From the NCBI GenBank assembly GCA_963682055.1, contig OY821751.1:5022001-5086000 (forward strand): 64,000 bases of DNA. Reading direction: 5' to 3'. Below, piece after piece: positions 7,901 through 61,028 of the stretch (positions are counted from its first letter, which is position 1; every line of letters starts with the position of its first letter). Origin of the DNA: Primula veris. Lineage: Eukaryota; Streptophyta; Magnoliopsida; Ericales; Primulaceae. The position numbers and the translations under genes were made by a program. Below the pieces are notes generated by a model, which did not search any database, had not been told where the DNA came from, and saw nothing but the letters and a program-made list of their open reading frames with translations.

Positions 7901-9926
7901 ATTTGGGATAGAAGACCTCCCTTATGGCTCCAGCCTCCAATAGCTTTTGTACTTCAGCAATTATAGCTGCTCTGTGCTGTACAGACACTTTTCTGCTCCT
8001 TTGAGCTATCGGCTTGTACTCCGCATCAACACTTAGGTGGTGGCATGCTGTTTCGGGGTCTAGGCCTGGCATGTCTTTGGGACTCCAGGCGAATTTATCA
8101 ACGTTGCTGAAGAGGAATGCTTCCAACACTTCGGATTCCAGTTTTTGAAGGTTATCGCCGAAGAGAAAGTAGTGCTCCTTGTCCATATCTGGGATATATA
8201 CCTTCCTAAGTGTTTCTCCGACTTGTTCTTCAACAACCTTCTCGGTTGTGGATATTAGGTTGATCAGCTTCTTTGTGCTGGTGGGTTGTTCGACAACGAT
8301 CAGCTGTTTTTGCAGGGCTGCGGTAATGTCTTCACAGCGTCTTGAATCTTCTTGACATCCTCTGGCTGTCTCGATCTCTCCCCTGTCATTTGGGTATTTG
8401 ACTTTTTGGTGGTAGGTCGAGGGTATGGCCCACATGGCATGCAGCCAAGGTCGGCCCAAGATTGCGTTGTGGTCGGAGTTGTCGTTGACTACTAAGAACT
8501 CCACGAGAACTGAAACGGATCCAGTTGTGACGTCGAGGACGATCTTACCCAAAGGTTTAGTCGTCTCGGAGATGAACCCGATCAATGTGACATCGGTAGG
8601 CTGGAGATCTTGTAGCTTGAGTTCCATCTTGTCGAAGAGCTCTCTGTACATGATGTCACAAGAGGCTCCTTGGTCGATAAGCACCCTGCTGACCGTGTCA
8701 AGGCCAATTTGAACACGGAGATTAATGGCATCCCCATGGGGATAAATCACCCCTTCTTCGTCAAGATACGAGAAGGAAATGGGTGGATGTCGTCGGGGTG
8801 TGCATTGTCTCTTAGAGGTCGATGCTTGTGACGCCTTGGCTACCTGGCCGAAGTGCGCCAGTTGCCGTTGTCGTGATCGTTCTCCACCTGTTCCCTTGGG
8901 TCGTGACATATGAACGACGTTGATCGTTTTGCCCTGCCGGTTGTCGGCTCCCTCGATGGCTAGTTGTTTGCCTTTAATCCCCGCGCCTTTGATGAACTTG
9001 GCTAGGTATCTCGCATCACCCCACAGGTTCATTTTCCATCGCAGGTTACGGAAATGTTCGGTGAGGTGGTCGTGGTCCTCGTGATATGTGCAGAAAAGCT
9101 TGGAATCTCTCATATTGGGGGGAGAAATAATCGGTTGTGGTCGGGAGTACCAACTTTCCCTGCATATATCCTTTAAGATATCTTCAGCGGACATGTTGAA
9201 AGTGTATCGTAGTTCGACCGGTTCGAAGATATTTTGGCGTTCCTTCTCTTGGAACCGATCTTGTTGGAGTGGTTTGGGGGGTATTGGATAAGTGAGCTGG
9301 AGCGGTTTATGTTCGTTGATCGGTGTTGGGTATGCGATCTGGAGCGGTTTGGGCTCAGATTCTCGTTGTCGCTCTACCCTCCTATGGACCTCGGGACCTT
9401 TGTCCTTCCTGGTCGGTTTGAATGCTTCTTCCTGGTTGTTCCTGGCTCTTTTACGACCCACCTGTGCTTCCCGAACCATTTCTCTTCTTGGTAGGGTTCG
9501 GTTGAGGAAACGCACTTCATCATTTTTATCAGTGAGGTGGGTACAGTAGGCCAGCAGGGAATCCGTGGTCGGAAAGTCTTTGCCTATGAACTTCCTTCTC
9601 GCCCAATAGCCATTAGGAATGGAGTTGATAAAGTTCTGGATGGCTATATTATTGGCGTACTGTGGAATCTGGTTTGCTACGTCGATGAAACGTATGCAAT
9701 AGTCGTTGAGCCTCTCATTCGGTATCATCGTCATTTTCAGAAGGGTTTCGATGCTAACCTTCTTTTTCATATGGGCAGCGTATCGGGTGGAGTACGCTCT
9801 CAGCAGCTCTGCCCAGTCTCTTATGGAGCCCCGTGGTAAGTTGTGATACCACGACGAAGCCTCTTGGCCCAAGCTGTTTTTGAAAAATTTGCACATGAGC
9901 GCATGGTCATCGCTCCACAATTCCAT
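4986..9926 (-). CDS. Gag(C-terminal)-protease-RT-RNase H-aRNase H-integrase polyprotein of a Tat retrotransposon
   Basis: An uninterrupted 1,646-codon ORF. Domains in order: retrotransposon gag core (about 1-140); a Cys/His knuckle C279-x2-H282-x4-H287-x3-H291, where Tat relatives usually have Cys last; aspartic protease DQGAS at 418-422; reverse transcriptase with FLDAYSGYHQ (728-737) and catalytic YIDD (792-795); the gypsy RNase H region (about 930-1050); a second, archaeal-type RNase H with D1074/DGSA, E1112 and D1138 regions and HADAL near 1186; integrase zinc finger H1295, H1302, C1333, C1336; integrase core D1365, D1425, E1461 (D-35-E spacing); and GPY motif WEGPY near 1605. The first ATG (9926) is not the true start: the same frame is open upstream to about 10105 and contains gag sequence, so this ORF is the frameshifted continuation of the gag ORF. 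Its product would direct reverse transcription and integration of the element. Confidence 0.92.
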   Translation of the reverse strand: MELWSDDHALMCKFFKNSLGQEASSWYHNLPRGSIRDWAELLRAYSTRYAAHMKKKVSIETLLKMTMIPNERLNDYCIRFIDVANQIPQYANNIAIQNFINSIPNGYWARRKFIGKDFPTTDSLLAYCTHLTDKNDEVRFLNRTLPRREMVREAQVGRKRARNNQEEAFKPTRKDKGPEVHRRVERQRESEPKPLQIAYPTPINEHKPLQLTYPIPPKPLQQDRFQEKERQNIFEPVELRYTFNMSAEDILKDICRESWYSRPQPIISPPNMRDSKLFCTYHEDHDHLTEHFRNLRWKMNLWGDARYLAKFIKGAGIKGKQLAIEGADNRQGKTINVVHMSRPKGTGGERSRQRQLAHFGQVAKASQASTSKRQCTPRRHPPISFSYLDEEGVIYPHGDAINLRVQIGLDTVSRVLIDQGASCDIMYRELFDKMELKLQDLQPTDVTLIGFISETTKPLGKIVLDVTTGSVSVLVEFLVVNDNSDHNAILGRPWLHAMWAIPSTYHQKVKYPNDRGEIETARGCQEDSRRCEDITAALQKQLIVVEQPTSTKKLINLISTTEKVVEEQVGETLRKVYIPDMDKEHYFLFGDNLQKLESEVLEAFLFSNVDKFAWSPKDMPGLDPETACHHLSVDAEYKPIAQRSRKVSVQHRAAIIAEVQKLLEAGAIREVFYPKWLSNPVVVPKKNGKERVCIDFTNLNKACPRDHFPLPRIDQLVDATAGAERMTFLDAYSGYHQIPLAHEDQEKTSFISPLGNYCYTVMPFGLRNAGATYQRMITRVCRDHIGKTMEVYIDDMVIKSESATSHLQDIRDVFQTLGKHKLKLNASKCAFGISKGKFLGHMVSQRGIEANPDQITALRNLAAPKNKKQVQKLTGMMAALSRFISRSADKGRPFFESLKKDRKFVWDPECEASFDNLKEYLRTLPLLVRPNKGDILACYLAVSTTAVSAVILREEGREQFPVYFVSKTLVEAETRYLPLEKLCLALIVATRKLPHYFIAHQIRVYTKFHIKESLRRTDISGRVAAWGVELSQFHIEFVPRHAIKGQVLADFVAEFTEGHDEPSTLSPQSHWQIHVDGSATKNGSGAGIVLKSREGAIIEKSIKLGFRATNNEAEYEAMINGMLVVRSLGCSHLIASSDSMLIVNQAIGEYQAKDDRMILYQEKVQSLMATFEQCELIRINRTKNAHADALATLASTLTMTDTRSITVELLMTPSIIKRVDRVTSVQYELGWMDDMTHYLRSGTLPADKIKALKITRKAPRLWLSEDDKLYKSSYRGPHLLCVPSELQLPVLEEIHEGSCGAHIKGRSLANKAVTQGYWWPYIKRDADVYVQRCDKCQRFAKIPRLPSSLMAPVSAPWPFAQWAIDLIGKLSRAPGSMEYLIVAMDYFTKWVEAEPLREIKASNVKQFIWEYIITRFGIPYAIVADNGTQFKDAQLQLWYEELGIRKFYSTPTYPQGNGQAEASNRTILDGIKTTLEQAKGRWPERLLNVLWSCRTTPKTGTKETPFSLAYGVEAIIPTEIGLPILRTTLVEQGNNEQRLREELDMIDEKREIAALTLAKYQQSVKQAYDKRVKGTKEFVVGELVLRKVTVYTRNEIHGKLSPTWEGPYEIVKRTSPVTYKLKSVLFENSRGEKNSWNVANLKKYYI

Positions 9927-9943
9927 CTTTGTCTTGTAGTGCC

Positions 9944-10906
9944 TTAGATGGTCGATAGGACAACTCCTTCCATCATAAAGCTTGAACTCAGGGATGACGA
10001 ACCCCGCCGGATTGCGATATCGCGTGATCTGGTCGGTACATGGGGTTTCTTGGCATACGTTCCATGCCTGTTGGAACGCGTCATCCGAGGCTTGGTAGGG
10101 GGGTATCCCCCCTGATGGGGTGGCGGGCCGTATCCTTTCCTGGTCATGCGTTCGGGATATCTATTGTCCTTCGTGTGGGTGTCGAGGACATGTTCCCTAT
10201 GAGTGTTCGTGTGGACGATTATCGGAGGGATCATTTCCGGGACATTGCCCCCTTGATGGGGCACTCTTGTATCGGTCTGTCGACCTGCTGCTTCCAGGGC
10301 GGCCCTGTAAGCTGATTCTTCCGCTTCACGGCGTAGATCTTTGTCTGTATTGGCGAGTTGGGTAATTGGAAATGCGATGCCGGCTGCTGTCATGGCCGTC
10401 ATGCATGCCGCCAGTTGAGCTTGTAGCTGGGCGTAGTTCCTTTCATCGGCTAAAGGAACAACGTGTTGTACTTCCACCGTGGGTGGGGTAATTATCCTCG
10501 GCGGATGAGTCGGTAGTCGGGACAACTGTTCGAGTACATGATCCCTGGGCATACCATATCGGTGAGCTTCGTTCGTTTGTAAACGAGCACCGGAGTTGAC
10601 CGAGGCTGTTAGCAAATGGACTCTTGAGCTCGGCCCTGCTTGGGATCCGGGTAGTCGTCTTCGTGCACGCCTTAATACGGGAATAACTTGTTCGTCCGAG
10701 GACGAGGGATGTTCGTCAACAATCCCTTCAAGTTGTTGGGGTTGTTCTTGGTTGACATAGGAGGTTGTTGGTTGGTTTCCGGACTGGATAGCGTCATATT
10801 TGTCACGGATGGCGAGCAGATTGTCGAGGTCTTGTTGGCTAATTTGCGCGTTTTGGTTATTGGTTTCTACTATCTCGGGATGGGTTTCTTCTTCATTGTT
10901 CACCAT
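9944..10906 (-). pseudogene. Gag N-terminal ORF of the Tat element, frameshifted
   Basis: Starts at ATG 10906, 60 bp after the PBS on the minus strand. The N-terminal 270 residues are low-complexity, Gln/Pro/Arg-rich and predicted disordered, as in other Tat gags. After the GGYPP codons (about 10097) this frame becomes meaningless and stops at 9944, while the pol frame takes over with good gag sequence (RYRNPAGFVIPEFKLYDG region, about 10040-9960). The switch lies in a C-rich run (G run on the plus strand, 10098-10103), which suggests a single-base deletion or a sequencing error. If real, this copy cannot make full Gag from a standard frame unless ribosomes slip there. Confidence 0.8.
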
Positions 10907-22775: not shown

Positions 22776-25700
22776 ATGTTCTCAGGTACCCACTTGCCTC
22801 ACATATGTGTGTGTGTATGTGTGTGTGAATTCCTGCAGATATGAACTTTTTATTTGTTTGTAATATTAGCTGTTTTCGATTTTCAGCTGGATTTTCGCTA
22901 TGAAATTATTTACATCAAACCACTTGTTAGTAAAAAAAAATTGATTTTATTTATTTATATATTCTAATTGATTTGTCTGTCCTGGCAGAGTCTAAGTTAT
23001 TATCTCAATTATGTAAAATTACTCATTTGAACTTTTGTCAGGGTTAAGTTTGGGAAGTCACGTACAACACAAATTCATCAACCTGCATCATCAGAAAATC
23101 ATCGGTATGTTTGTTTTACTCGATTTTAATTTTTCAATTTCATTATGGCATTCTTTATGAATGTTCATTATCTTAACCCGTGATCGAAATCCTCCCGCCT
23201 CTACTAAACGTACCCATATAGAAGAGCTTACAGGGAAAGTTATTTTATTTTTTATCTTTTTATGTTTCTAGAAGCTAAACAGCTCAATTCAAATACTTTA
23301 TCGTTTGTCACTGTATTTAATTATGGGGTATTTTGGATTTTTAGCCACAATTTTGTGTAGTTTAACCTTTCCCTTTGGACCATGCCGGTTGCTTGCAATC
23401 TTGAGCTACTTATCACTATTATTAGCCAAATGTTTATGGGGTGTTGTATGAATTTGATCATGTGACTTAACATTTCATTTCCATTCTCGTTTCCCTAGTT
23501 GTGCATGTATTATAAGAGTTTCCGATCTCGAAAAATGATACAATAAATTCTTATCAATTCAGTGTGTAAGAATCAGGAATAAAAGTTGGAAGTTTACTGA
23601 AATACTCACAATAATTGAAAGATGCATCGTACGGGTTTCATTGCCATCTGGTTTATCCCTTTAATTTATCGACGAAGGCTAATTTATTTGAGAAATGATA
23701 AGCTCACATATCTTGTGGCAGATTTGCCAACTGATCACACTTTGTTTGGCACCCAAACTGAGACCTGAATATTTTGTTCCCGCCCATATTTGAGGCATAA
23801 GTGAACCCAAAACAGTCACCCCCAATTTTTAGTGACCTTCTAAAGCAGTTGTCAACTTATTCTATCTCTCCTTTCCAAGCCTTTACTGAATTTATGGGTG
23901 GTGACTGGTGAGTATTCTTTTCTTCATGGATTGACATTATATGCGCTTTGGTTGGTACTTAATCCATTTCTCCACTTTGGTTTTCATTGCTTCACACACA
24001 CAATATATCACAAAGGGATGCTTTGCAAGATAGACTGTTTGTGTATGATTACTTTCGTAACTTCTTGTAATTACAGGTTTGCCAAGTTCTGGTCTTTGTT
24101 TTCCAAGATCAAGGTGTTCACCTAAGACTCAAATCAAGTGTGTGTTACATCAATCAAGTGAAGTTTCTTCTACTATTGACAGAAATGACGTAATTAAGCC
24201 TTTGGTTAAAATGTGTGGAATCACATCAGCTAGTGACGCTGCTTTAGCAGCACAAGCAGATGCTAATTTTATTGGAATGATTTTATGGCCAAATTCGAAA
24301 CGTTCAATATCACTCTCGGTTGCAAAGGAAATTTCAAAAGTAGCTAGGGAACATGGGGCGGAGCCTGTAGGGGTATTTGTCGACGATGATGTGGACACAA
24401 TATTGAGGGCTTCTGACGCAGCTGACCTTGAATATGTACAAGTAATTCAACCTTATGTTCTAATTTTTTCCGATCTAAAAATTTGTAGTCAATATATATA
24501 GCTTAAAGTTTTATACCCTGGTGTATCATTTATAATAAATTTTGCACACCAACATACATAATTTCAATTTAGAAACCTAACATTGCTTTTAGGTTTTGTA
24601 CTCTGTGTAGACATGGTCTACACAGAAACGTATATTAGATTGGGGACCAAAATAGAAAAAGATATACGGGATAAAATAGTATTGAAACGATGCAAAAAAT
24701 CGTTAGGATAGTGGATACAACTTATGATTTTATAATTATTTAGTATTGCAAGTTGCAACTTTTGATTTTTTCAGATTTGGTACACTTGTGAGAAATGTAA
24801 CGACGGTGTAAAAATTACAAGTTTCTGATATTGTATAGCTTGGTTGTCTTTTTCATTGGGTTCAGGATTTACTTGGTTCATTTTATTTTCGTTCCTAAAA
24901 AGTGGAATAAATAGGAATCTTCTTTTTTAGGTTTTAATATGAGGTGATCTTAGGATATTTGTCTTAGAATGATTTTTTGGTCTGATGCACCAAAGGTGTT
25001 CTCTTACGTTTCTGTTTTTGATAATCAGAAAATAGTTTTCAGGATCTAAAATTACATCGTTAACTATTTTTCATTTACAGCTTTCTTTTAGTTCCCTATT
25101 TTCAGTTTTGATTTTTGAAAACTCGGCAGCTTCATGGCGATGAGTCTCGAGCTGCGTTTCCGATTATAGTAAAAGACAAACAAGTAATTTATGTTCTTCA
25201 TGCAAAAGAAAATGGAGAACTGTCGAACCATATATCAGAGCAAGACTGTTCTTTAGTTGATTGGGTTCTCATTGATAGTGCAACAGGTGGAAGGTGATTA
25301 TTTAACTATTTCGGTACTTCCTCTACTCATAGGTTTAGAAACGTTACTTGTTGCGCCTGTTAGATGGTTCAACTAAAAGGTTTCATAAGCAAGATCAATT
25401 GCATATGGTGTACTACTTAGTAATCGATTAATCATTCTAGCATATGTGATTTTTATGTATTCAAATTGTCACAATTAATAGCAGCTAAAGGGACTTGTTA
25501 CCTTAAGGGCTTTGTTCAAAACCTGGCTCAAATTTGCTCCTCCTACCAACAAAAGCTATATATCCTACCATTGAGAGAAGATTAGTTCAACATTTAAAGC
25601 ACAACTATTTTTTGTTTATTGCTGGGTTGAATTTAATGGTTGTGTAATTAAATCCTCTCAATGAGCTTTAGAATTGGAGAATTGTTTCTTAGTTGCTTTT

Positions 25701-26134
25701 AGGATCCAAAATTTCGAAATATTAAATATCTGAAATCTGAAGCCATTTATTGTTGTAAATATGAATCGTAATATTTCGCACATCATTGCAGTTCCTTTGT
25801 CCCTGCTAGAACTAACTTAGGTGAATATACCAAACCAATTTTCTCACTCTTACTGATTATATATTTGCTTTTTGTTATGCCTACAAGTCAGATATTAATT
25901 ATTTGCAGTGGTAGAGGATTCGACTGGAAAAGGTTCACACTACCACTGATCAAAAGCAAATACGGATGGCTATTGGCCGGTGGAATAAAACCGGAAAATA
26001 TATGTGAAGCTTTTTGTGTTCTTAGGCCACATGGAATCGATGTAAGTAGTGGCATTTGCGATTCTGATGGAATTCAGAAGGACAAACTTCGCATATCATC
26101 TTTCATGAGAGCTGTAAATTCCGTCAAATATTAG
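22776..26134 (+). CDS. PAI1: Phosphoribosylanthranilate isomerase, chloroplast (5 exons, 275 aa)
   Basis: Catalyses isomerisation of N-(5'-phosphoribosyl)anthranilate to CdRP, the third step of tryptophan synthesis, in plastids. Exons: 22776-22785, 23042-23104, 24077-24441, 25130-25293, 25909-26134; all GT-AG, phases agree, total 828 nt including TAG. The first ~60 residues (Ser/His/basic, few acids) are a probable transit peptide. The TrpF fold follows: [12 protein letters not shown] with the catalytic Cys, [59 protein letters not shown] with the general-acid Asp, [12 protein letters not shown] and [18 protein letters not shown]. All catalytic and phosphate-loop motifs are intact. The start is ATG 22776, just 10 coding bases before the first intron; exon 1 is therefore tiny. 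The extra copy of its 5' flank lies 4.9 kb upstream in direct orientation. Confidence 0.93.
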
Positions 26135-32091: not shown

Positions 32092-43957
<11,866 letters not shown>

Positions 43958-44494: not shown

Positions 44495-44971
44495 GTTTAG
44501 TACACCAAACTATCTGTTTTTAACGATTTGGGTATCCATCTTTCAAATTTTCCAATTTAGGTACCACACTATAATAAATTTTCAATTTAGGTACCACCGT
44601 CTAAATAAATCACGGAATCACGTCACGTGACATTTGACAAACATTAATTTGAGAGTCTAATTTGACAATTTTGCATAAAAATATGTCATCCTATAAAAAT
44701 ATTTTTTCCAATTTTACAAATAACAAAATTTTGGATTATATGCTAAATTTGGATTATATGCTAAAAGTTTTTCTAGTATGACATATTTTTGTGTAAAATT
44801 GTCAAATTAGCATATCAAATTAATGTTTGTCAAATGTCACGTGACATAATTTCGTGATTTATTAAGACGGTGGTACCTAAATTGGAAATTTATTATAATG
44901 TGGTACCTAAATTGGAAAATTTGAAAGATGGATGTCCAAATCGTTAACCATAGTATAGTTTGGGGTAGTAA
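44495..44971. mobile_element. Fold-back element with ~200-bp inverted arms
   Basis: The left arm begins ggtttagtacaccaaactat and reads through gtaccaccgtctaaataaatcacg and cacgtgacatttgacaaaca. The right arm repeats these blocks in reverse complement (tgtttgtcaaatgtcacgtg, cgtgatttattaagacggtggtac) and ends atagtttggggtagtaaa. A short central spacer carries two copies of ttggattatatgctaaa. No ORF. It would form a long hairpin RNA if transcribed. Confidence 0.85.
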
Positions 44972-47452
44972 ATATATTTTTTCCCTTTTTAATACCTTGT
45001 ACTTCTTTTTTAATTCTTTAAGTTTAATACAACTATTTGTGCACGTATATGTGAATTATTAAAATAGACAATCAAGTCAATCCAAATGCTAATCTGTGGG
45101 GTTAAGTTCTTTAATTGTAATTGTTGAGCTGGGAAAATATAAACAAGGGATAAAACAATTCATTTTTTTCTTACTAGATTCATGAATATAGCCTCGCTTA
45201 GTCGCTCTCAAAGATATTTCTTCATTTTATTCGGGTTTTATATCTTTTTTTACCTTCGTTTATTCATTTTTTTTCCTGTTTTGTACATTGGTTTCTTGAT
45301 TTATTTATTTTTTTACCATAGTTATCTATTTTTTATTTTTTTGTCTAAAACTAAGGTATAAAAATTAAAAACCAAGGTACAAAAAAGAAAAATTAAGAAA
45401 TAAATGTACAAAAACGAAATAAAAGTAGAAACCATGGTACAATTATTTTGTTAAGAAACCGAGGTACAAAACGAGAAAAAATAATAAACAAAGGTACGAA
45501 AAGTTAATAAACTCATTTTATTCCCATGTTCACTAGTTGGATTTATTATATTGTTCTCTTAAGAACCAATTTTTTTTTAAACTGCCTTAAAATGAAATCA
45601 TGGAGCTAATTAGCTTTGGTAGTGGCTAATAAATAAGTACATATTGTCTTCATCGAGACGTTTTAATTTTGAACAACAAATAATAATTTGATCCTCGATG
45701 TGCCACTTGCGAGACCATGTTCATTCAACCAACATACATTTAACATTTTTTCAGATAAATCATTCATGTCAAATTAATTTCGAAAATATACACTATTATT
45801 GGATGCTAACCTATGGAGGCTAATTTTTAATTAGTCACTTGAAATATTTGCAAATTTCAAGTGATATTCTTGTTTGATTTTACCCACTTGTCCACTTGAC
45901 AACATGTACTAAAGTCATAGCCTCATGGCAATTAGGCAATAATAATCACCACATATTAAACCTACAATAATGCATATCTCAAAATTAAATATATATCTAT
46001 ACTATTACTTTATGTCAACATCTCTTATAAAGCCTTAAAATAACTATTTACAAAAAAAACTCTTCAATTACACAAATTGTAAATAAAATAAATATTAAAT
46101 AAAACTGCTATGTTATGTTACCTGTCATCACACTTTCAAATTCATTTGTCTCTCCCCTCTTCTCTCTCCTCTTCTCTTCTATCTCTCCAATTTTTTTACT
46201 ATTCCAGGTATGAAATTTTATTTTTTTTCCAATAATATTATTGTTATTAATTTATGTGATTTCAATTTTATGGTTGTCAAGTTTATATTCGATTTAATTA
46301 ATATATATGAATATAGGTTATCGTCAGACCAACGCATCACGTAGACAGGTTCGCTAGTCTACTTTAATACAAACTTACAAAGTCATGAAATGTCAAAACT
46401 CATGAAATATATGCCATTTGGAGCTCCTCCTACGCAATTGGAAGTTACAGCCTCATTCAGACAAAAACAAAAAGGAAAAATGGAATTCATTATTTAGGAA
46501 AAGATAAACATTTGTCAAGATTTTAACTCGCGAAACAAACTATTGAAAGAAAATAATGTTTTATGTGGGTGAATAATCAATAACCGACGTCTTTTGGTAG
46601 ACAATCAATGCGCATGTAGAAACGCTTTGTCCATGCAGTGCCGAATACTTGCCTCAGTTTCGGTGAAGAGTGTGGCTCAACTAACAGAGAAGAGTTATAG
46701 GGAATCGATTCCTCCAACACCAACGACTATATAAAAACTTGTTAGCATATTGTTTACGAGTGTTAATTTAGATGGGGAGTGCACTGTTTGTTTGCTGAGA
46801 ATGACATGTCAAGTTTATGGGTGTGAGTTTAGACGTGGTGTATAAAATTTAAATATAAATAAAAGAAGAAATAAAACATTACCATGAAAAATTCATTCAT
46901 TAATAATAAATGGAATCCTACTTCAACAACAAAATAAATAAATTCATGATTTAAAAATATTTTACATTTATAAGTTGTTTAACAATGAATTTAACTATTT
47001 TAAAACAATGTGTATTTATTTATGAATTAAAAACTTGTTTTAATTTTTTTTATTGAACAATTGAGCGGAAGTGGAACCAACACAGAGATAACGGGACAAG
47101 AAGTAAGAGATATAATCAAAAAACCAACATCTCGTCGCACACATAACAACAATCTGAATATATAAAATTGGTCAATTGGGTTTAGCGGTGCTTCGCCTTC
47201 CGCAAACCAAACCCTTAACACATGATATTACGAAAACCTACTGGTACCCTTGGAAATTATAATTTTCTTTTTACAAATAACCCACATGAAATATAAGTTA
47301 TGCAATCAAACGATGAGTGATTATATAATCATCCTTTACAAAAAAAAAAAACCTAACCTATTTTAAGTATTTGGACGAAATGTATGTAAACTTACGAAAA
47401 GTGGTAGTTTGAGGGTTTAAAAAAATAAGTTGCTAGTTTAGAGGCCAAAATC
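44972..47452. other. Intergenic, no gene seen
   Basis: AT-rich, with runs of aaggtac(a/g)aaa at 45350-45500 and a CT-rich tract at 46140-46200 (ctctcccctcttctctct). The latter resembles a 5' leader, but no convincing ORF follows. Confidence 0.4.
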
Positions 47453-48190
47453 TTAGTAAGTAAATAGATACTCAAGGGTGCAAAACCAATACTACAATAC
47501 TAAACATTTTTACCGTTCATGAAGTAGAATGGCAAGGTTCCATAATTAATAGGGGTTTATTTGTAAATCACATGTACTTTTTAGGCGTTATTTTCACTTT
47601 ACAGACGACAGTGTACATTGTACGATGTGGTAATTTCATATTAGTCACAATTTTGATACTTAATCACTAAAAAGTCACACATTAATGTTTGTATCCCCAA
47701 TAAGTCACATTTTTTTTTTAAAATTCAACTAATTTACAAAATTGTCATTATAGCAACATAGAAATGATCATTTATCTCTTTAAAAATAAAAAAAAAACTA
47801 TATATGAAAAAAAAATCGAAATTACAAAAAAAAAAATTAGCAAAAATTAAGAAAACTCACTTTTCTCAACAAAAAAATAAAATAAAATAGTTTTTTCACG
47901 AATTTTTTTCGAAATTATCATTTATCTCTTAGTAAGTAAATAGATACTCAAGGGTGCAAAACCAATACTACAATACTAAACATTTTTACCGTTCATGAAG
48001 TAGAATTGATAGGTTCCACAATTAGCAGGGATTATTTGTAAATCACATATACTTCTTAGGCGTTATTTTCACTTTAGCAACGACAGTGTACATTATACAA
48101 TACAAGGTACTAACTACTAAACATCTTTTAACCCGTTTACGAAGTATAATTGGAAATTTCATAGTTAGTAGGGTTATTTATAAAACGTGT
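47453..48190. repeat. Direct repeats, two good copies and one diverged
   Basis: The block agtaagtaaatagatactca...ccgttcatgaagtagaat...ggcgttattttcacttta at 47453-47625 recurs at 47929-48100. A shorter diverged copy lies at 48112-48190, and a tail fragment (ttataattaacaggggg...tattttcactttata) at 48950-49020, just upstream of the kinase gene. Probably debris of one transposon family. Confidence 0.7.
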
Positions 48191-49132: not shown

Positions 49133-49891
49133 ATGGAGCGGCGATCGGACTACACGATCCTCCCCCAAATTCCGCCACCGGCGGAGGCGGCGGCAAACCG
49201 GCCGTCGAGCGGCAGCAGCTTTGCGGACGAGAGCTCAGTCTCGTCCTCCGATCACTATGCTGCCTATAACACCGCCTCGGCCTTGGCGAAGAGCTGGGCT
49301 CAGCAGACTGAGGAAGGATACAGGCTCCAGCTCGCACTCGCCCTCAGGCTATCCGACGATGCCACATGTGCGGACGATCCTGGGTTCCTGGATCCCTTGA
49401 CTGATGACGTGGCGGGGAGGAGTGTGGGTGGGGGGTCTCCGGAGGTTCTTTCGCATCGGTTTTGGGTGAGATTTGTCACCTTTTGTTTTAATTGGGGCTG
49501 TTTTGGTAATTTATAGAATTAGCTGAACTAATTTGATAATCATTTCCCCCTCTCTCTCTCTCTCTAAATCTTATCCCTCTATATATATGTACACATACAA
49601 ACAAACACACACACACACAATGGCTGAGCAAAACACCGGAAAAACCGAACCGAACCGATAGAACCGAAAAAGACCGAAAAAACGAACGAAAAAACTTCGG
49701 CTCGGTTTCGGTTTTCAATAAAACCGAACCGAAAAAGACCGAAAAAACCCGAAAAATAACCGAAAAACCGAAAACCCCCGAAACTGGACCGAAAAACCCG
49801 GTCCGGTTTGATCCAAAAAATAAAAAGACCGAAACCGAAAAATATGCTCGGTTTCGGTTTTGCTAAAAACCGAACCGAACCCAGCCCTATG

Positions 49892-49934
<43 letters not shown>

Positions 49935-52900
49935 CGTAGCTGAACTTATTTGATAATCAGAAAAGTCAGTTCATTGTGTTTCTGCTCCGGAGGTGCTTTT
50001 GAATCAGTTTTGGGTAGGGATTTTGTAACCTTTTGTTTTACTTGGGGCATTTTTGGAAATATGATTGAATTAAGTGGACTAATTTGATAATTAGAGAAAA
50101 CTACTATTTAAACGTTATGTTTTAATTAGGGAATTTATTGTTGATTTAGAGAAGCGAAATGTGCACTAATATGTATACATAGAGCTCTCTGGCGATGCCA
50201 CCTGTGCCTGATGAGATGGCGGTACGGTCGGGAGTGTTTCCGTTCCGGAAGTGCTTTCGCATCGGTTTTGGGTAGGGGTTTTGTAACTTTTGTTTCACGT
50301 GGGGCATTTTTGGAAATCTGATTGAATTAGGTGGACTGATTTGATAATTAGAGAAAAATACTATTTAAACGTTTTGTTTTAATTAGGGAATTTATTGTTG
50401 ATTAAGAGAAGCGAAATGTGCACTAATATGTATACATAGAGCTCTCTGGCGATGCCACCTGTGCCTGATGAGATGGCGGTACGGTCGGGAGTGTTTCCGT
50501 TCCGGAAGTGCTTTCGCATCGGTTTTGGGTAGGGGTTTTGTAACTTTTGTTTCACGTGGGGCATTTTTGGAAATCTGATTGAATTAGGTGGACTGATTTG
50601 ATAATTAGAGAAAAATACTATTTAAACGTTTTGTTTTAATTAGGGAATTTATTGTTGATTTAGAGAAGCGAAATGTGCACTAATATGTATACATAGAGCT
50701 CTCTGGCGATGCCACCTGTGCCTGATGAGATGGTGGTACGGTCGGGAGTGTTTCCGTTCCGGAAGTGCTTTCGCATCGGTTTTGGGTAGGGGTTTTGTAA
50801 CTTTTGTTTCACGTGGGGCATTTTTGGAAATCTGATTGAATTAGTTGGACTGATTTGATAATTAGAGAAAAATACTATTTAAACGTTTTGTTTTAATTAG
50901 GGAATTTATTGTTGATTTAGAGAAGCGAAATGTGCACTAATATGTATACATAGAGCTCTCTGGCGATGCCACCTGTGCCTGATGAGATGGCGGTACGGTC
51001 GGGAGTGTTTCCGTTCCGGAAGTGCTTTCGCATCGGTTTTGGGTAGGGGTTTTGTAACTTTTGTTTCACGTGGGGCATTTTTGGAAATCTGATTGAATTA
51101 GGTGGACTGATTTGATAATTAGAGAAAAATACTATTTAAACGTTTTGTTTTAATTAGGGAATTTATTGTTGATTTAGAGAAGCGAAATGTGCACTAATAT
51201 GTATACATAGAGCTCTCTGGCGATGCCACCTGTGCCTGATGAGATGGCGGTACGGTCGGGAGTGTTTCCGTTCGGGAAGTGCTTTCGCATAGGTTTTGGG
51301 TAGGGGTTTTGTAACTTTTGTTTTACTTGGGGCTGTTTTGGAAATTTGATTGAAGTAGCTGGACTAATTTGAGAATTAGAGAAAACTCCTGTTTAGGAGT
51401 TTTGTTTTAGTTAGGTATATATTGCTTTGCGGACGAGAGCTCGAGCTCTCTCTCCTCCTGCAATCACTACGCCGCCTATAACACCGCCTCTGCATCGGCA
51501 AAGAGCTGGGCTCAGCGGACGGAGGAGAGCTACAGGCTCCAGCTTGCACTCGCTATCAGGCTATCCGGCGACGCCACATGTGCAGATGATTGTAATTTAT
51601 TGGATACCCTGCCCCTTGATGACGTGGCAACACAATCTACCGCTTCGGAGGTGCTTTCTCATCGGTTTTGGGTAGGTGATTTGGTTTAATAACTAATTAG
51701 GTAATTTTTTGCGATTTTAGTTAGATAGGCCGACTTATTAGATAATCTGAATATTCGGTTGTTATGTGTTTGGCATCTGCTTTTTTGGGTCAAAAACCTG
51801 TTTTAATAATCATGAGAAAAAAGCTTGCTTCAGAGTATGTGTAGTATGTACCTGATGACATGGCGGTACGGGTGTGAGAGGGGGCGGTTCCGGAGGTACT
51901 TTCACATCCGTTTTGGTTGAGATTTGAAACTTTTGTTTTGGTTGGGGCATTTTTGGAAATTTGGTTGAATTAGCTAGACTAATTTGAGAATTAGAGAAAA
52001 CTCCTGTGTTAGGAGTTGTTTTAGTTAGGTATTTATTGCTTTGCGGATGAGAGCCCAGTCTCCTCCTCCGATCACTACGCTGTCTATAACACCGTCTTTG
52101 CCTCCGCGAAGAGCTGGGCTCAGCAGGCCGAGGAGAGCTACAGGCTCCAGCTCGCACTCAGGCTATCGGACGACGCCACATGTGCGGATGATCCTGGGTT
52201 TTTAGATCCCGTGCCCGATGACATGGCGGTACGGACTGAGGGTGTTCCTAGTGATGCTCCGGAGGTGCTTTCACATCAGTTTTGGGTGAGTTTTGTGACT
52301 TTTTGTATTACTTGGGGTAATTTTGTACGGTTTATTGAAGTGGCGGACTAATTTGATAATCAGAAAAGTCTGTTCACTGTGTTTCTATTCCAGAGGTGCT
52401 TTTGCATTGGTTTTGGGTAGGATTTTTGTTACTTTTGTTTTATATAGGGTTGTTGTGGTAATTTTTGGAATTATCTGGGCTAAAGTGAGAATCAGAGAAA
52501 ATTCAGTTCATTCTGATTTGGAAATGTGATTAAATTGGCTGACTTTATGAGAATTAGAGAAAACTCCTAAATACTAGGAGTTTTGATACTTTTGATTTAC
52601 TTGGGGATATTTTGGAAATTTGATTGAATTAGCTGGACTAATTTGATAATTAGAAAAAAACCCTTCTATTTAGTAGTTTTGTTCTGTTTAGGGATTTATT
52701 GGGATTTGAAATAGATAAGCTGACTTATTCTGATAATAAGAAAAGTCGGTTATTGTATTATTGTTACTCTAATTTATCTCCATAGTGATCTCATTGTTGT
52801 ATGTAGTGTAAAAACATTAGGGCATTTTTTGTTGATTTAGAGAAGCAAAATATACCCTAATTTGATTACATACTGTATATATAGCTATAGGAAGCAGCTT

Positions 52901-53951
52901 CGCCGACGAGAGCTCAGTCTCCTCCTCTGATCACTACGCCGCCTTTAACACCGCTTCGGCGTCGGCAAAGAGCTGGGCTCAGCAGACCGAGGAGAGCTAC
53001 AGGCTCCAGCTGGCACTCGCGTTGAGGCTATCCGACGAGGCCACGTGTGCCGGCGATCTTGGGTTTTTAGATCCCCTGCCTGGCGACGTGGCAGAGAGGG
53101 AAGTTGGGGGGTTTCCGGAGGTGCTTTCACATCGGTTTTGGGTAGGTTTTTGTTACTTTTTGGTTTGCTTGGGGTAAATTTGGAAATTTATTGAAGTAGC
53201 TGGACTAATTTGAGAATTAGGACAAACCTTCTATATAGTAGTTTTGTTCTGTTTAGGGACTTATTGGGATTTGAAATAGATAAGCTGACTTATTCTGATA
53301 ATAAGAAAAGTCGATTATTGTATTATTGTTACTCAGTTACTCTAATTCATCTCCATAGTGATCTCATTGTTGTCTATGGTGTAAAAACATTAGGGCATTT
53401 TTTGTTGATTTAGAGAAGCAAAATATCCCCCAATTTGAATAGATACTATATATATATAGCTATAGGAAGCAGCTTCGCTGACGAGAGTTGAGTCTCCACC
53501 TCCGATCACTACGCCGCCTATAACACCGCTTCGGCCTCGGCAAAGAGCTGGGCTCAGCAGACGGAGGAGGGATACAGACTCCAGCTCGCACTTGCCCTCC
53601 GGCTATCGGACCACGCCACGTGTGCGGACGATTGTAATTTCTTGGATCTCGTGCCTGGTGACGTGGCGGGGGTGTCTCCGGATGTCTTTCACATCGATTT
53701 TGGGTGAGATTTGTTACTTTTGTTTTAATTGGGGGTGTTTTGGAAATTTATAGAATTAGCTGGTCTAATTTGATAATTAGACTAGTCGGTTCATTCTGTT
53801 TTTGATAATTAGTCGGTTCATTCTGTTTCTATTCCGCAGGTGCTTTCACATCGGTTTTGGGTGAGATTTGTTACTTTTTGTTTTGCTTGGGGGTGTTTTG
53901 GAAATTTGGTTGAATTAACTGGACTAATTTGATAATCATCTCCCTCTCTCC

Positions 53952-53985
<34 letters not shown>

Positions 53986-56900
53986 GTATATATATATACG
54001 ACACATTATATAGCTGGACTTGTTTGTCAATTAGAGAAAACTCCCATTTAGGAGTTTTGTTTTAATTAGTGACATATTATGATATTTATTAGATAAGCTG
54101 ACTTGTTTAATAATTAGGGAAGTTGGATATTGTTCTCCTAGTAAGTCACAAAAATTGTGTCAGAATTGATTCCTGAATTTTCTGAAAGAAAGAATAATGC
54201 ATTGGTGGAGCTTGCCTTGCTGTTTTACTGGGTTTTCAGAAAAAGTGGATTCGCGCCTTAGTGTTGTTATAGACTGTTGGAGTACTTTGTTTAGTATGTT
54301 GTTTTTGCTTTTTCTAAACTGCTACTGCCATTCTAATAAGATTGTATATATAGATTGACATATGACGTCTAACAATTTTCCTCGTTGCAGTTATCCAAAC
54401 GTCTAACAATTTAGTTATCTAAATTTGCACCATCCAACATCCTATTTGGAATCTATGCTTATGATTTTTCTCCTTTTTCCCGTGTCATAAAAATATACTG
54501 TATTGACATTTAGCTTCGACTGGTTTAATTAATTAATAAATCTACCATGCATCAGGTGAACGGGTGCCTATCATACTCTGACAGAGTTTCTGACGGTTTC
54601 TATTTAATTCATGGGATGGATCCCTACATATGGAGTGTGTGCACTGATATACAAGAAAATGGACGGATCCCTTCAATTAATTCACTAAAGGCCATCAACC
54701 CCAGAACAGACTCATCAATTGAAGTAGTCATTATTGATAGATTTAGCGATCCTAGCTTACGAGAATTGCAGAATAGGATGCAAAGTGTCTCCAACAGTTG
54801 TATCACTACACAAGAAGTTGTGGACCAGCTTGCGAAAATTGTTTGCAATTGCATGGGGTAGGTTTTTTGGCATATGGTAGTAGGTGAATTGTAAATAACC
54901 CTTGTATACATGGGTGGTTTGCAAATAACCTCCACATACTTCAGATACTTACAATTTAACCACATGTACTTTATTAGTTCTGCAGCCAACCCATGTCCGA
55001 ATAAAATTAAATAAATTTTCCCTTGGTTTGCCGTCTGGTACTAATTTTTTTTTGTTTCATGTATATTGTCGATATCTATGCGGTGTAAGCAGTGAAACAC
55101 GGTTTGGCACTATATCTTTGCAAGAACCTACTTTTCTGCTTTCATAGATTCTTTTAGGTAAATTTGCATAAAGTGACTTTTTCAAAATGACAACACTCTT
55201 AGACGCATATTTATAAACAAAAGAAAAAAGTCTTAACTCAAGACAAAGAACTGAAGAGTTGTACAAATCTAAAATTGGATGTGGGGCTGATTGAAACACT
55301 TATATAGTACATTGGGTCTATTTGCAAAACACCAACAGTACATTTTTTTTTTCATTTCGCCATTATTTTTTGTTGGTTAATGGTAAGTAAAAACATTAAA
55401 ACTTATGTATATAACTAAGTTCTATTGCTGCCACAAGGGGTGTTGCTTCGACTGGAGAAGATGTCTTTGTTCCTATTTGGAAGGACTGTTGCAACAGCCT
55501 TAAGGAATGCTTAGGATCCGTTGTGATTCCTATTGGAAGCCTTTCAGTTGGTCTTTGCAGGCATCGTGCTCTACTTTTTAAAGTATGCTTATTCAGTTAA
55601 ACTTAAAATTTTTTTATCAAGACCTTGAGTATTTGTTTTTATTTTTTTCAGTTTTGAAATATGCAGGTGCTGGCTGACTCAATTGATTTACCTTGCCGTA
55701 TTGCCAAGGGTTGTAAATATTGTTCTAGAGGTGACGCTGCCTCTTGTCTAGTGCGAGTTGATGTAGACAGGTAACATTTTTACAATATTGAAAACTTCTA
55801 ACGATTCATACTAAGACCTTGCTTGGTTGCGGCTAGTAAGCTCAGCTAATTATATATTTGAAAAGTTGTGCTGTTAATGGCTGACGAGCTTAAGAGCCGA
55901 CCTTGCCTGTTTTTTCTGGCCTGAATGGGCTAGAATCTCTAAAAGTGCTTAAAAGTTGCATCCAGACAAGCCCTAACCTTTTCATTTGAATATTGCATTC
56001 TGATAATGTGGTCATTGAATGATCATTAGAGGTGCGCTGCACCAGGTTGAAGTTATTCTTATTTGGGTCATGTATCGATTTCTGGCCTTTCAGCAGTCTC
56101 TTTTGTGTAAAAGTTGCTGTTTAGTTTTTTTATGAATTCAAAAGATGAACTATGGTAAAGGTTATAGGGAAATACTGTTACTTGTCTGGGTTAGATTTAG
56201 ATTTTTTCTGTTACAACTTATAATCTAGCGTATTCGTGAGCAATTATATGTCAGTTTTATCCCGATCTTCAAAACTAGCTGTAACAATTTTTTTCTTCTT
56301 AAAGTAGGAGTATAATTACCGAAAATTGAAAAGGTGGAAACTAACTGATGTAACTGAGAGCGACCTAAGAGTTTAATAAAATATATGAAATAACGTAAAG
56401 TGAGACGATCATTCTCTTAATGACAATTAAAGTTACATGTTATAAGAGAAATCAGTAGAATCGACTAGGAAAATAGAGAGTGGAGGAAAGAAAGGGGATA
56501 CACCCTAAATCCATAGCGTGCCTTGAATTGGACTCAAGGAGAACTATGAAGAAGAAAAAAATTGCGAAATCCTGGAGTGATAGAATAAAAAATTGCCAGA
56601 AACTGTTTTTATTTTGTTCCTGATCTCCATTAATCTGTCAGCATAGCCTTTATATTCAGATAAACTGCTTACAACTGGAAAATATTCAGAAACTACTGCC
56701 TATCATCCAGAAGTAACACCTTCTTACGGATTTGCCAGGGAGTTTCTTGTTGATTTAATGGGGAAACCGGGTTTTTTATCTGCACCTGATTCTGTATTAA
56801 ATGGCCCTTCTACAATCTCAGTTTCTACCCCATTGCGGTTCCCAATATTCAATCAAGTTGAACCTTCAGTTGATTTCAAGTCGCTGGCGCAAAAGTATTT

Positions 56901-59900
56901 CTCGGATTGTCAAGTTCTGGATATAATATTCAGCGATTCTTCTACAGGTTATCTCTATAAACCCATTTGGTCCTTTTTATCTATTTAAAATCATCTCGTA
57001 ACTTAGCTACAAACCATATTATGGGGCTTGAACCTGGAACATCCGCCAAAGTACCAATATTTCCCTTTGGTTGTCTTCATTCCTTGATATTTTTTATAGA
57101 AGGATATGCATATAGCGTTTCCAGCTTAATGGGAGTATGTGCCAGTACCAATATATTTTTCTTGGGTGTCTTTGATCCTTTCTGTTATGTATAGAAGAGT
57201 ATACAAAATGATGGTACTAGCTCTTTGGTAATTTCTGACAGTGATATTGTGCCCGATACATTTGGTCTAAATTCTAATATGATTCAAGAAAATGGAATAA
57301 AATTGGAACTTTACAAATATTAGAAAGTGATTATGTTCTAGTCTAGTTATTTATACATGAGGAGACTAGAATCTGAAAGTTGAACAGTTCATTGCATATT
57401 TGATATACCAAATAGAAGAGAACTTGTGGGAACGCGATCACCCAGAAGAAGTGATTGACTACCCATCTCATAGTTTATTAGTTTTTTGACCCACCTCTTA
57501 TGGACTAAGATGCATGAATTTTGTACATTTTGTTCAATACTGTTTTTTAATAAATTAAATACATTCTTACACTTTAAGAAAAATAAAGAGATAAATAATT
57601 TCCATATCTTAGCACTATCATAATATCCTAAATTGTCAAAATTGACTGTATAGATGTACTGGTTATCCAGTCACATAGTGCCTTACTTCTTATTAAGGAA
57701 CTTTATTGATTCGGTTAGACTTCATCCTATATTAGCTATGCAGAAAAAGATACATGTCCATGTATTTGCATTTTGTTTGGAACTCCTGACTATGGTTGCT
57801 TTTGCGTTTTATAAAAGTAGATACTTATGATAATCAAACAGTTTATCTTCCTTGTATGCATTTTAATCATTTGTTGCGGAGTTGTAATATTAGTGATGAA
57901 CGTCATAGGTGTTGCTTTTGACGGAGATGCTGCTGAAATTCCTCAATTACCCTTGGGTGCCTTAGCAAACCCTCATTATAGTGACTTTCCACCTTATGTT
58001 GATGGTAGCCATTTGGTATCAGCTAAATCAAATCAAGATCTTTCTCTTGATGTGGAAGATCTAGATATCCCATGGAGAGACCTTGCTTTGAAAGAGAGGA
58101 TAGGATCAGGTAAATATAAAATCTCATATTTAAGAACCTTCGAGCAAAGTTTCAGGAGATACCATCACTTGACTTGTGATGCTGTTTTCCTAGTGTTCGA
58201 AAAAATGTTCCCCTTCATTTATTATTTTTTATTACCTGAAGCCTTCCTACTTTTCCTTTGGGAAAATGTCACTTTTGTACACCAACCTTCTTCTTTTTAG
58301 CATGTAGTAGACCATACTACTAAATTTCACAATTTAGAGACTAATCTACAGAAAATTGAACAATTAGTACACTGGTGTTTTAAAGTTCAACTCAAAAGAA
58401 CTCGTATGTATTGAATGCTCGTTCATACTCGTCTACTAAGCACCAACATTCACAAAATAAAAAAATTAATATGCCATCCTTAAAATTTAAACTCAACAAA
58501 TTTGATAATTTGGTTTACAATGAGATATTTTTCCTTTTAGGGAGTAATATCTAACATTGTGACGAATTGGTGCATTTTCAGGTTCCTTTGGAACTGTTCA
58601 TCGCGGCGATTGGCATGGATCGGTAAATACTAGTATGAAACTCTAGTTGTAAATTACTTGGTGAGTGTTCTTGATATACTAAATAGTTGATTTTCTTTTC
58701 AGGAGGTTGCTGTCAAGATTCTTATGGATCAAGACTTGCATCCTGGACGGTTGGATGAATTCTTGCGGGAGGTGCGTAGAAACTATTTTCTTATGTTTCT
58801 TTTCTTTCCAATTTCCTACTGCTAAGTCTATACCAACTTTTCTAGGTGGCTATCATGAAACGTTTACGGCATCCAAATATTGTGCTTTTCATGGGCGCTG
58901 TTACTCAACCCCCAAATTTGTCCATCGTTACAGAATATTTATCAAGGTTTGGCATGTCCTTTTTGAATTACCAAACCATTGGTGATGACACATAATTTTT
59001 TGAGGTCCATTTCATTTGAGTGTTGTCAATTTTACCACTTTGGTTATTTTTTATATGCAGAGGTAGTTTATATAGGCTTTTGCATAAACCTGGTTCAAAA
59101 GAAGCTTTAGACGAAAGGCGAAGATTGAGTATGGCTTATGACGTGGTATGCATTTGTGCCAGTTTTTTTTCTTCATAAAAAGTGGTCATATGGCCAACAA
59201 TAACAGACTTTAAACGACTATTATTGACTTTCTACAGGCTAAAGGAATGAATTATCTTCATAACCGTAATCCTCCTATCGTTCACCGAGATTTAAAGTCT
59301 CCAAATCTTTTAGTTGATAAAAAGTATACGGTAAAGGTGAGAAGACTTGTTGAGCATTAAATAGCTCAGTCTTTCGCATGTTACTTTTCCTGTTCTCCAT
59401 GGTGTTTATTAGGATGCCCAGTGTACATGATTTGATATTTATGGAAAAATTGACGTTCTTTGTAATTTATTTGATTACTTCTACTACAAGCTAAGCGGGG
59501 GATATTTTAGTATAAGAGCAAGTACTTAAGCACCATTATTTGATCAGTAGTGTGTTTTATTCACTCGTGTAATGGGTTTTTAAACATATTCTTGCAGTTC
59601 TAGACGTTACTTGGCTAGTTTGTTTCAAGGATTTCATTTTTTAGATGAGCAAATATATTTGCCTCGTTAGTAGATGATTCTTCTAAACTCACATCAGTTG
59701 TACATTTATGAATCATGAATTATCTGACTCCATTAATAAAGAAAATATCATTTAATCTCGTGGACGAGACCGTAGTAGGATACTATGTTAAACACACTTG
59801 TTATTTAATGTTATTTTCTTCGTAATATTCTCACCACATAATGTGTAAATAGTTAGGAGACATGATTGATATTTTTCTTTTCTTTTCTTTTCCTTCCATC

Positions 59901-61028
59901 AACCAGATATGTGATTTTGGCCTTTCCCGTTTAAAAGCAAACACCTTTTTATCATCAAAGACTGCAGCAGGAACTGTAAGTTCCATTTATGTTTTGCCTT
60001 TCAATTTAACCACTTTTTAAAATGTATTTTACTTAGCTTTCGTCATTACTAAATGTTCTTTATTTTTTTATATATTCTAGCCTGAGTGGATGGCACCAGA
60101 AGTATTCCGTGATGAGCCCTCAAATGAAAAGTCAGATGTATATAGCTTTGGCGTAATATTGTGGGAACTTGCAACATTATTACAACCTTGGGGAAATTTA
60201 AACCCAGCACAGGTTTGAATCTTCATTTTACTTGTTGTATAGTCTATATTCTGGATAGATGTTAGGGGGTTTTGTTAACTGCACTGGATTTGTTAGTTGT
60301 TGGGACAGCTTTAAGTAAGCACTAGTTAATAAATGTTGTATTCTTTTCTTCTAACAATATCAAGGGAGCTGATCTGACCTGGAGCTTGCTGCAACCTAGC
60401 TTGTGTCATACTTTCTATCGTTCCCCATCTAATTGTTTGCATGTACTGGTAGTGTCCCTGGAATTCCCAAACCACTTGTTATCTAGCAACTAGTTTGTTG
60501 CAATCCTAATTTATTACTGGATTACTCGTATATTTTTGGCGCTTAATCAACTTCCATGACCTCAGTTGACCTCACGATACAATGATAATACTGAAAACTT
60601 CCAGATAGAATAGTATTGATGTCCAGATTTTGATAAATTTATGGTTCTTTTATTGATTCAGAATTTAGCCTGCTTACTTAAGATTCTGGTAAATTTCTCT
60701 GTAAGATCAATAAAATGTTTGCCATTTTCTCAGGTTGTAGCAGCAGTAGGTTTCAAAGGAATGAGGCTTGAGATTCCTCCAACATTAAATCCTGAAGTAG
60801 CAACTATAGTTGAAGCTTGTTGGGCCAAGTGAGCTGCTATTCTTCTTGTTATAACATATGATTTGGTGCAACTTCCAAAAGCTTCTTTCTGCTAATTTAG
60901 TTTTTTTCTGGAAATACAGTGAGCCACGAAATCGGCCTTCATTTGCGAGTATTATGGAGTCTTTGGGAGCTTTGATTAAAAAGCTAACTCCCCAACCAGT
61001 TCGTGAAGATAGTCATTTGCTTAGATAA
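49133..61028 (+). CDS. CTR1: CTR1-like Raf-type serine/threonine kinase (15 exons, 697 aa)
   Basis: CTR1 is the negative regulator of ethylene signalling: docked on ER ethylene receptors, it phosphorylates EIN2. Exons: 49133-49465, 54556-54857, 55438-55582, 55667-55770, 56739-56947, 57909-58109, 58582-58622, 58703-58771, 58846-58946, 59061-59145, 59238-59336, 59907-59975, 60081-60212, 60734-60828, 60920-61028; 2,094 nt, phases agree. N-terminus: [32 protein letters not shown] and SHRFW. The EDR1/CTR1 regulatory domain spans about 112-365 ([25 protein letters not shown]). Kinase domain from about 424: IGSGSFGTV loop, K450 in [14 protein letters not shown] (D548), DFG (566-568), APE (591-593), ending NEPRNRPSF. 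All catalytic residues are present. It is shorter than Arabidopsis CTR1 (821 aa), mainly at the N-terminus and in the linker, so a CTR1 paralogue is possible. Intron 1 (5.1 kb) contains repeated copies of exon 1. Confidence 0.94.
49620..49890. mobile_element. CCGAA-rich hAT-like MITE inserted in a (CA)n tract
   Basis: Dense variants of accgaaccgaaaaagaccgaaaa and their complement ctcggtttcggttttg, ending cgaacccagcccta, the TAGGGCTGGG.TCGG terminus of a widespread hAT MITE. It is bounded on both sides by ACACAC repeats, as expected if it landed in a microsatellite. The left end (aatggctgagc) is diverged. Confidence 0.55.
50150..51400. repeat. Five near-identical 257-bp tandem units in CTR1-like intron 1
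   Basis: The landmark agagctctctggcgatgcca starts at 50181, 50438, 50695, 50952 and 51209, exactly 257 bp apart. Each unit holds a truncated exon-1 tail (ggcgatgccacctgtgcctgatgagatggcgg...ctttcgcatcggttttgg|gtagg) followed by intron sequence. A diverged half unit precedes the array (from about 49985). Units differ by only a few bases, so amplification is recent. Confidence 0.95.
51411..51671 (+). other. Exon-1-derived cassette, copy 2: open, in-phase candidate exon (87 codons)
   Basis: Preceded by ttttgttttag and followed by gtaggt; 261 nt with phase 0 at both ends and no stop. From 51426 it parallels exon 1 ([47 protein letters not shown]). Spliced between exons 1 and 2 it would add an 87-residue N-terminal repeat. 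Whether it is used is not known. Confidence 0.55.
52025..52285 (+). other. Exon-1-derived cassette, copy 3: open, in-phase candidate exon (87 codons)
   Basis: Same architecture as copy 2: acceptor gttgttttag, donor gtgagt, 261 nt, phase 0/0, no stop. Retains [50 protein letters not shown] and VLSHQFW. Copy 2 and copy 3 lie 614 bp apart, and their immediate upstream sequences also match. Confidence 0.55.
52893..53141 (+). other. Exon-1-derived cassette, copy 4: open, but no phase-0 acceptor
   Basis: Open across [20 protein letters not shown]...SHRFW with donor gtaggt. Upstream AGs (atatagctatag|ga, ggaag|c) give phases incompatible with exon 1. It shares a ~575-bp duplicated unit with copy 5, including a tatatagctataggaagc stretch before it. 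Confidence 0.6.
53468..53703 (+). pseudogene. Exon-1-derived cassette, copy 5: broken
   Basis: An in-frame TGA at 53489-53491 (gagagttgag) and a shifted 3' end (gatgtctttcacatcgattttgg) inactivate this copy; the central [22 protein letters not shown] region is otherwise intact. Confidence 0.8.
53704..54555. other. Rest of CTR1-like intron 1
   Basis: Contains one more exon-tail fragment (ctattccgcaggtgctttcacatcggttttgg near 53830), a (CT)n(AT)n microsatellite at 53940-53998, and then unique AT-rich sequence up to the exon 2 acceptor at 54555. Confidence 0.6.
55816..55977. mobile_element. hAT-like MITE in CTR1-like intron 4
   Basis: The left end ccttgcttggttgcggct and right end ttgcatccagacaagccc are imperfect inverted repeats and resemble the demethylase intron MITE at 36985-37172. 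Confidence 0.45.

Follow-up and report, generated by a model that had tools for sequence, protein, structure and literature searches.

Tandem copies of the first coding exon within intron 1 of a CTR1-like kinase gene in Primula veris

The 64,000-nucleotide stretch of DNA analysed here (the window) contains a kinase gene whose first intron carries additional copies of its first exon, and this raises the question of whether such copies are exons in current use or the remains of older duplications. The host gene is intact: a hand-made model places 15 exons at 49133-61028, with 697 codons uninterrupted by a stop and GT-AG boundaries at all introns. In a protein search, the 697-residue product matched CTR1 proteins of many flowering plants, with a best score of 1106 bits and identities of 63-85% over the aligned part (best 120 of 2538 matches), and the part encoded by exon 2 matched PF14381 above the curated cut-off. 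By this homology the gene is a CTR1-like kinase gene with a presumed role in ethylene signalling; the kinase assignment reflects overall similarity to CTR1 proteins, the Pfam domain scan having covered the exon 2 part. With CTR1, a Raf-like kinase of ethylene signalling, it has in common the KSWAQQTEE module, the SHRFW/V junction, and a single unbroken frame that spans the EDR1/CTR1 domain and the kinase. However, it differs from the CTR1 homologues in its short N-terminus (697 residues in all, in comparison with 679-1035 for full-length homologues among the matches listed) and in the additional exon-1 units of intron 1, which are seen in none of the homologue proteins among the matches listed. 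As no protein above 85% identity was found among the best 120 of 2538 matches, this species and its near relatives are apparently absent from the matches listed. The KSWAQQTEE...SHRFW module is without a Pfam match, and by eye it resembles what we take to be a ubiquitin-interacting helix. The exons on either side of intron 1 are as follows.

49133..49465, plus strand: exon 1 (c1) of the gene model, start codon to ...SHRFW, phase 0, donor gtgaga
54556..54857, plus strand: exon 2, start of the EDR1/CTR1 domain (PF14381, E 3.2e-30)

Two copies within this intron, c2 and c3, had been proposed in a preliminary description as cassette exons, and their geometry was confirmed. Each is exactly 261 nt long and open, lies between an upstream AG and a downstream GT (gtaggt; gtgagt), and is in phase 0 at both ends, which fits the junction between exon 1, ending in phase 0 at 49465, and exon 2, starting at 54556. 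When either copy was joined in silico, the frame was held to the natural stop with 784 residues, and when both were joined, with 871, in comparison with 697 for neither; the proposed gains of 87 or 174 residues are thus correct for a transcript that includes them. The AG acceptors are also present as described, but the earlier account had overlooked a second AG located 4 nt downstream of each phase-0 acceptor (TTTTAGTTAG), so that each copy can be read as two alternative exons.

51411..51671, plus strand: copy 2 (c2) from the first AG, 261 nt, open, phase 0 at both ends, donor gtaggt
51415..51671, plus strand: copy 2 from the second AG, 257 nt, frame-shifting, better acceptor score
52025..52285, plus strand: copy 3 (c3) from the first AG, 261 nt, open, phase 0 at both ends, donor gtgagt
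52029..52285, plus strand: copy 3 from the second AG, 257 nt, frame-shifting, better acceptor score

An exon beginning at the second AG would shift the frame and end it, in the in silico joining, at codon 198 (c2) or 170 (c3). Splice sites were scored with a matrix built from the gene's own 14 introns, a small set that makes all scores rough. On this scale the donors of c2 (5.6) and c3 (7.6) lie inside the native leave-one-out range of 1.6-8.8, whereas the phase-0 acceptors reach -2.6 and 2.5, respectively, with native acceptors at -2.1 to 10.6 (median 2.1), and rank 172 and 61 among the 271 AGs of intron 1. For the AGs located 4 nt downstream, the scores are 8.7 and 5.5 and the ranks 7 and 20, mainly owing to the GT that follows them, which is frequent at native acceptors. 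An upstream AG may still win over a downstream one by its position. The two copies also stand out as GC-rich islands (0.54-0.56) in flanks of 0.29-0.35.

The two proposed cassettes are part of a larger array. By using an nhmmer profile of the exon/intron unit, 16 matches were found within 49133-54555, five of them long (exon 1 and the four long copies of intron 1, c2-c5) and eleven partial, with the 3' end of the exon present in nine of the eleven. The preliminary description, accurate as to c2 and c3, had thus left out two further long copies and all eleven partial units, including a 257-nt array repeated 5.6 times in which the unit comprises the 3' part of the exon, the donor and the start of the intron.

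49976..51415, plus strand: tandem array of truncated copies, 257 nt x 5.6 (Tandem Repeats Finder, 96% matches; nhmmer)
51849..52003, plus strand: partial copy, 3' exon end and intron start, donor lost (ttttggtt) (nhmmer)
52388..52664, plus strand: two partial copies (nhmmer, 52388-52510 and 52579-52664), one with 3' exon end plus intron, one with intron only
52891..53141, plus strand: copy 4 (c4), open frame, donor gtaggt, within the open reading frame 52866-53177
53466..53703, plus strand: copy 5 (c5), in-frame TGA and frameshift, broken
53832..53953, plus strand: partial copy, 3' exon end and intron start (nhmmer)

c2 and c3 resemble the unit far more closely than chance allows; their nhmmer E values are 1.5e-102 and 6e-110, with c2 and c3 themselves being part of the model. 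With copy 2 as a DNA query against the 436.5 Mb assembly, a single search returned at least five places, a lower bound; the five were the long copies of this locus, all at E <=2.3e-45. An origin from a present-day paralogue is unsupported by this one DNA search, as all five places fall in this locus. The long copies of intron 1 begin inside exon 1, at about ...GSSF, and the start codon is therefore absent from them. Outside the intron, a weak 51-nt match to the exon-1 profile at 46651-46701 (E 4.5e-4) is probably due to chance.

Other repeats were seen in the window. Intron 1 contains at 49630-49880 a low-complexity stretch rich in AACCGAAAAA, parts of it in both orientations. Upstream of the kinase gene, at 47451-48101, lie two near-identical stretches, one match covering 107 nt at 93% and the other 74 nt at 89%, separated by about 476 nt, and at 44520-44947 an inverted repeat with 185-nt arms, 91% complementary and 58 nt apart, looks like a small inverted-repeat element. 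The minus strand holds a 1724-codon open frame at 4986-10160 that, by eye, resembles a Ty3-type retrotransposon polyprotein. Open frames that by eye look like a phosphoribosylanthranilate isomerase (24061-26134) and a DEMETER/ROS1-type DNA glycosylase (34044-38712) were noted as well.

Copies 4 and 5 differ in condition from c2 and c3. Copy 4 (52866-53177) is open, and its differences from exon 1 lie mostly at third positions, yet it is without a good in-frame acceptor. Its acceptors at 52885, 52891, 52895 and 52898 all shift the frame, and phase 0 is obtained only at 52911, inside the exon, with a score of -7.0 and an in-frame product of 774 residues if it is used. A role of c4 as an alternative first exon was rejected, as its open frame has no ATG. 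Copy 5 has its TGA near the copy start and its frameshift near the 3' end, and in the in silico joining early stops resulted from four of four c5 acceptors and from four of the five c4 acceptors tested. The copies are mosaics, as c5 shows: its codons 1-34 are nearest c4 (8/96 sites differ), codons 35-55 are nearer c1 (7/63 differ, versus 14/63 to c4), the intron downstream of it is nearest that of c1 (K 0.11), and the codons TGT AAT at columns 56-57 are common to c2 and c5.

An open frame in c2 and c3 was rejected as proof of function, since 39-64% of simulated copies remained stop-free after neutral evolution at the observed divergence. The acceptor of c2 and c3 is common by descent, with K of 0.12 in the flanking intron, so it counts as one event and not two. 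For both reasons, the earlier argument that dead duplicates would not be expected to stay open and symmetric is weak.

In the codon analyses, c5 was cut at its frameshift, its stop codon was masked, and gapped codons were excluded. Pairwise dN/dS among all five long copies was 0.12-0.50, and the range of 0.12-0.25 for exon 1 against the copies suggests that constraint acted at some point along those paths in the past. Such values below 1 were rejected as proof for c2 and c3 themselves, because pairs with the broken c5 give 0.22-0.28 too, the paths to exon 1 carry exon 1's own constraint, and synonymous change falls mostly at CpG-capable sites. For the c2-c3 pair the value was 0.50 with an interval of 0.26-1.06, so that mild constraint is compatible with it. 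Branch values fitted on the four best of 15 topologies separate the copies: exon 1 is constrained (0.07-0.08), followed by c4 (0.13-0.14; likelihood-ratio statistic against 1, 15.0-16.5) and c5 (0.22-0.37; 3.7-7.1), whereas c2 (0.50-0.74; 0.3-1.3) and c3 (0.38-0.68; 0.2-2.9) are indistinguishable from 1. The pooled tips of c2-c5 reject a value of 1 on the four topologies (7.1-29.4). By these fits, c2 and c3 are the two copies without demonstrable selection, and c4, which is hard to splice in frame, shows the most.

Differences between c2 and c3 are spread over the three codon positions as 14/12/17 of 77, with third positions at 17/77 versus 26/154 for first and second (one-sided Fisher P 0.22), while those between c1 and c4 are 6/8/27 of 81 (Fisher P 2.9e-6). 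In neutral simulations run 400 times at each of five settings, with CpG rates of 1 to 40 times, the c2-c3 third-position share of 0.40 compares with 0.33-0.40 (P 0.19-0.53 over the five settings), whereas at every setting all 400 runs stayed below the c1-c4 share of 0.66. The remaining pairs that include c4 gave P <=0.045, c1-c2 gave 0.013-0.090 and c1-c3 gave 0.007-0.058. A count of private synonymous and nonsynonymous changes (6/21 in c2-c4, 5/2 in exon 1) carries little weight, because variable third positions rarely count as private and the count is thereby biased against synonymous changes. In the preliminary description, dN/dS near 1 among the copies had been named, together with a lack of junction reads, as what would speak against use; the branches of c2 and c3 and the lack of a significant third-position excess between them agree with a value near 1, but the pairs of exon 1 with the copies do not.

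At conserved sites, changes were observed in both proposed cassettes: relative to residues conserved in homologues, c2 has, for example, Q to R, P to C and P to T, and c3 has R to Q in SHRFW. Length changes relative to exon 1, on the other hand, keep the frame in six of six cases (c2 +6, +3 and -9; c3 -6 and +6; c4 -3), in comparison with 5/30 array-intron gaps divisible by 3. The chance of six in six is 2e-5 at the array-intron rate and 1.4e-3 at one third, figures to be read with some changes ambiguous in direction, gaps of related pairs non-independent, and the changes possibly dating from an earlier constrained time. From these length changes and the c4 result together, it seems likely that coding constraint formerly acted on some of the units.

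Intron divergence served as a neutral reference. The introns adjoining the copies differ by K of 0.10-0.37, and among the copies dN is 0.08-0.18 and dS 0.35-0.71; dN thus ranges from less than intron divergence to roughly the same level, and dS clearly exceeds it. CpG context accounts for some of this excess of dS. In CpG-capable neighbour context, the proportion of differing sites is 0.38 for third positions and 0.15-0.18 for first and second ones, figures that use neighbours only, one CpG mask being biased towards variable sites; at other sites the three positions differ at 0.165, 0.111 and 0.114. As third positions are the more variable in CpG-capable context too, CpG would explain only part of the pattern.

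Tandem exon duplication is a kind of structure already known, and alternative splicing has been described as arising from it (Kondrashov and Koonin 2001, as cited in the available text of PMC2674458 and PMC3064661). The present locus has in common with such systems homologous exon copies side by side in one gene, with inherited donors and with matching phase for c2 and c3. It differs in that the copied exon is the first coding exon, minus its start codon, that most units are truncated or broken, that c2 and c3 look unselected, and that the locus is known from DNA alone. A literature search, with subscription journals mostly outside its reach, found nothing like this locus for tandem exon duplication in plants and nothing of this kind for exon duplication or splice variants of CTR1. 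For tomato LeCTR4, a splice variant is said to have been reported. A pattern search for two KSWAQQTEE-type modules found them in none of 280 distinct homologue proteins among the matches listed in three protein searches (best 120 of 2538, best 120 of 642, and 90 of 90); most of these are predicted proteins from which rare isoforms would escape, and none is from this species or a near relative.

Taken as a whole, the locus is probably, although with considerable reserve, a tandem exon-duplication array that was partly coding in the past and is now drifting. The order of events that we infer begins with a unit in which the greater part of exon 1, from ...GSSF to SHRFW and lacking the start codon, is joined to the beginning of intron 1. 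An old array would have grown from it through successive duplications in place, with some pieces lost afterwards and with recombination between units producing the mosaic copies. The donors were inherited together with the unit, whereas the phase-0 acceptors of c2 and c3 may have arisen once, in adjoining upstream intron sequence, in the common ancestor of these two copies. Some copies, most clearly c4, seem to have been under coding constraint for part of their history, which may mean that they were formerly spliced into mRNA. At present c2 and c3 would be drifting, c4 has no good in-frame acceptor, c5 is broken, and the normal transcript would run from exon 1 to exon 2.

That c2 and c3 are working cassette exons, one or both adding 87 or 174 residues as KSWAQQTEE...SHRFW modules before the EDR1 domain and altering receptor docking, is unlikely. 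Such use would suit their open phase-0 frames running to the natural stop, their GC-rich islands, native-range donors and in-frame length changes. It would also be in line with Arabidopsis CTR1, whose N-terminal domain, according to the available text of PMC9870993, binds the ethylene receptors; once that domain is removed, the protein enters the nucleus and no longer rescues the mutant. Against it stand the neutral-looking differences between c2 and c3, a phase-0 acceptor that is the weaker of two adjacent AGs, the changed conserved residues in both copies, and the lack of two-module proteins among the homologues listed. The sequence lends no support to a present-day function for c2 and c3, and changed ethylene sensitivity through isoforms is a conjecture. 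A related proposal, that CTR1 N-terminal isoforms with one, two or three modules tune receptor docking or nuclear movement and have left their trace in the in-frame changes and the coding signature of c4, is to be regarded as quite unlikely.

It is similarly doubtful, and to a marked degree, that c4 and perhaps other units served as coding or alternative exons until recently, or stood in exon 1 through unequal crossing-over, so that function moved between units and the present state is a snapshot of turnover. The coding-like differences between c1 and c4, the c4-like and c1-like parts of c5 with its c1-like downstream intron, and the codons common to c2 and c5 would all fit; c4, however, is without the start codon part and has as its sole phase-0 acceptor one scoring -7.0, and CpG context inflates third-position change, although simulations with up to 40-fold CpG rates fall short of c1-c4. 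Least probable, and very much so, are poison exons, whose inclusion through 51415, 52029 or from c4 or c5 would shift the frame, lead to transcript decay and lower the CTR1 level: the well-scoring second AGs and the early stops from these, from most c4 acceptors and from all c5 acceptors tested are consistent with them, but nothing points to inclusion or regulation, the acceptor scores from 14 native introns are rough, and the frame constraint of c4 is left unexplained.

The decay of a tandem exon array is the favoured reading. If the copies are leftovers, the locus would clearly illustrate how such decay proceeds within an intron of a plant gene, since its five long units would have reached different stages: one is still constrained, another keeps an old coding signature, two remain open but drift, and the last is broken. 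If they are used, they would provide a means of varying the number of N-terminal modules in the central kinase of ethylene signalling.
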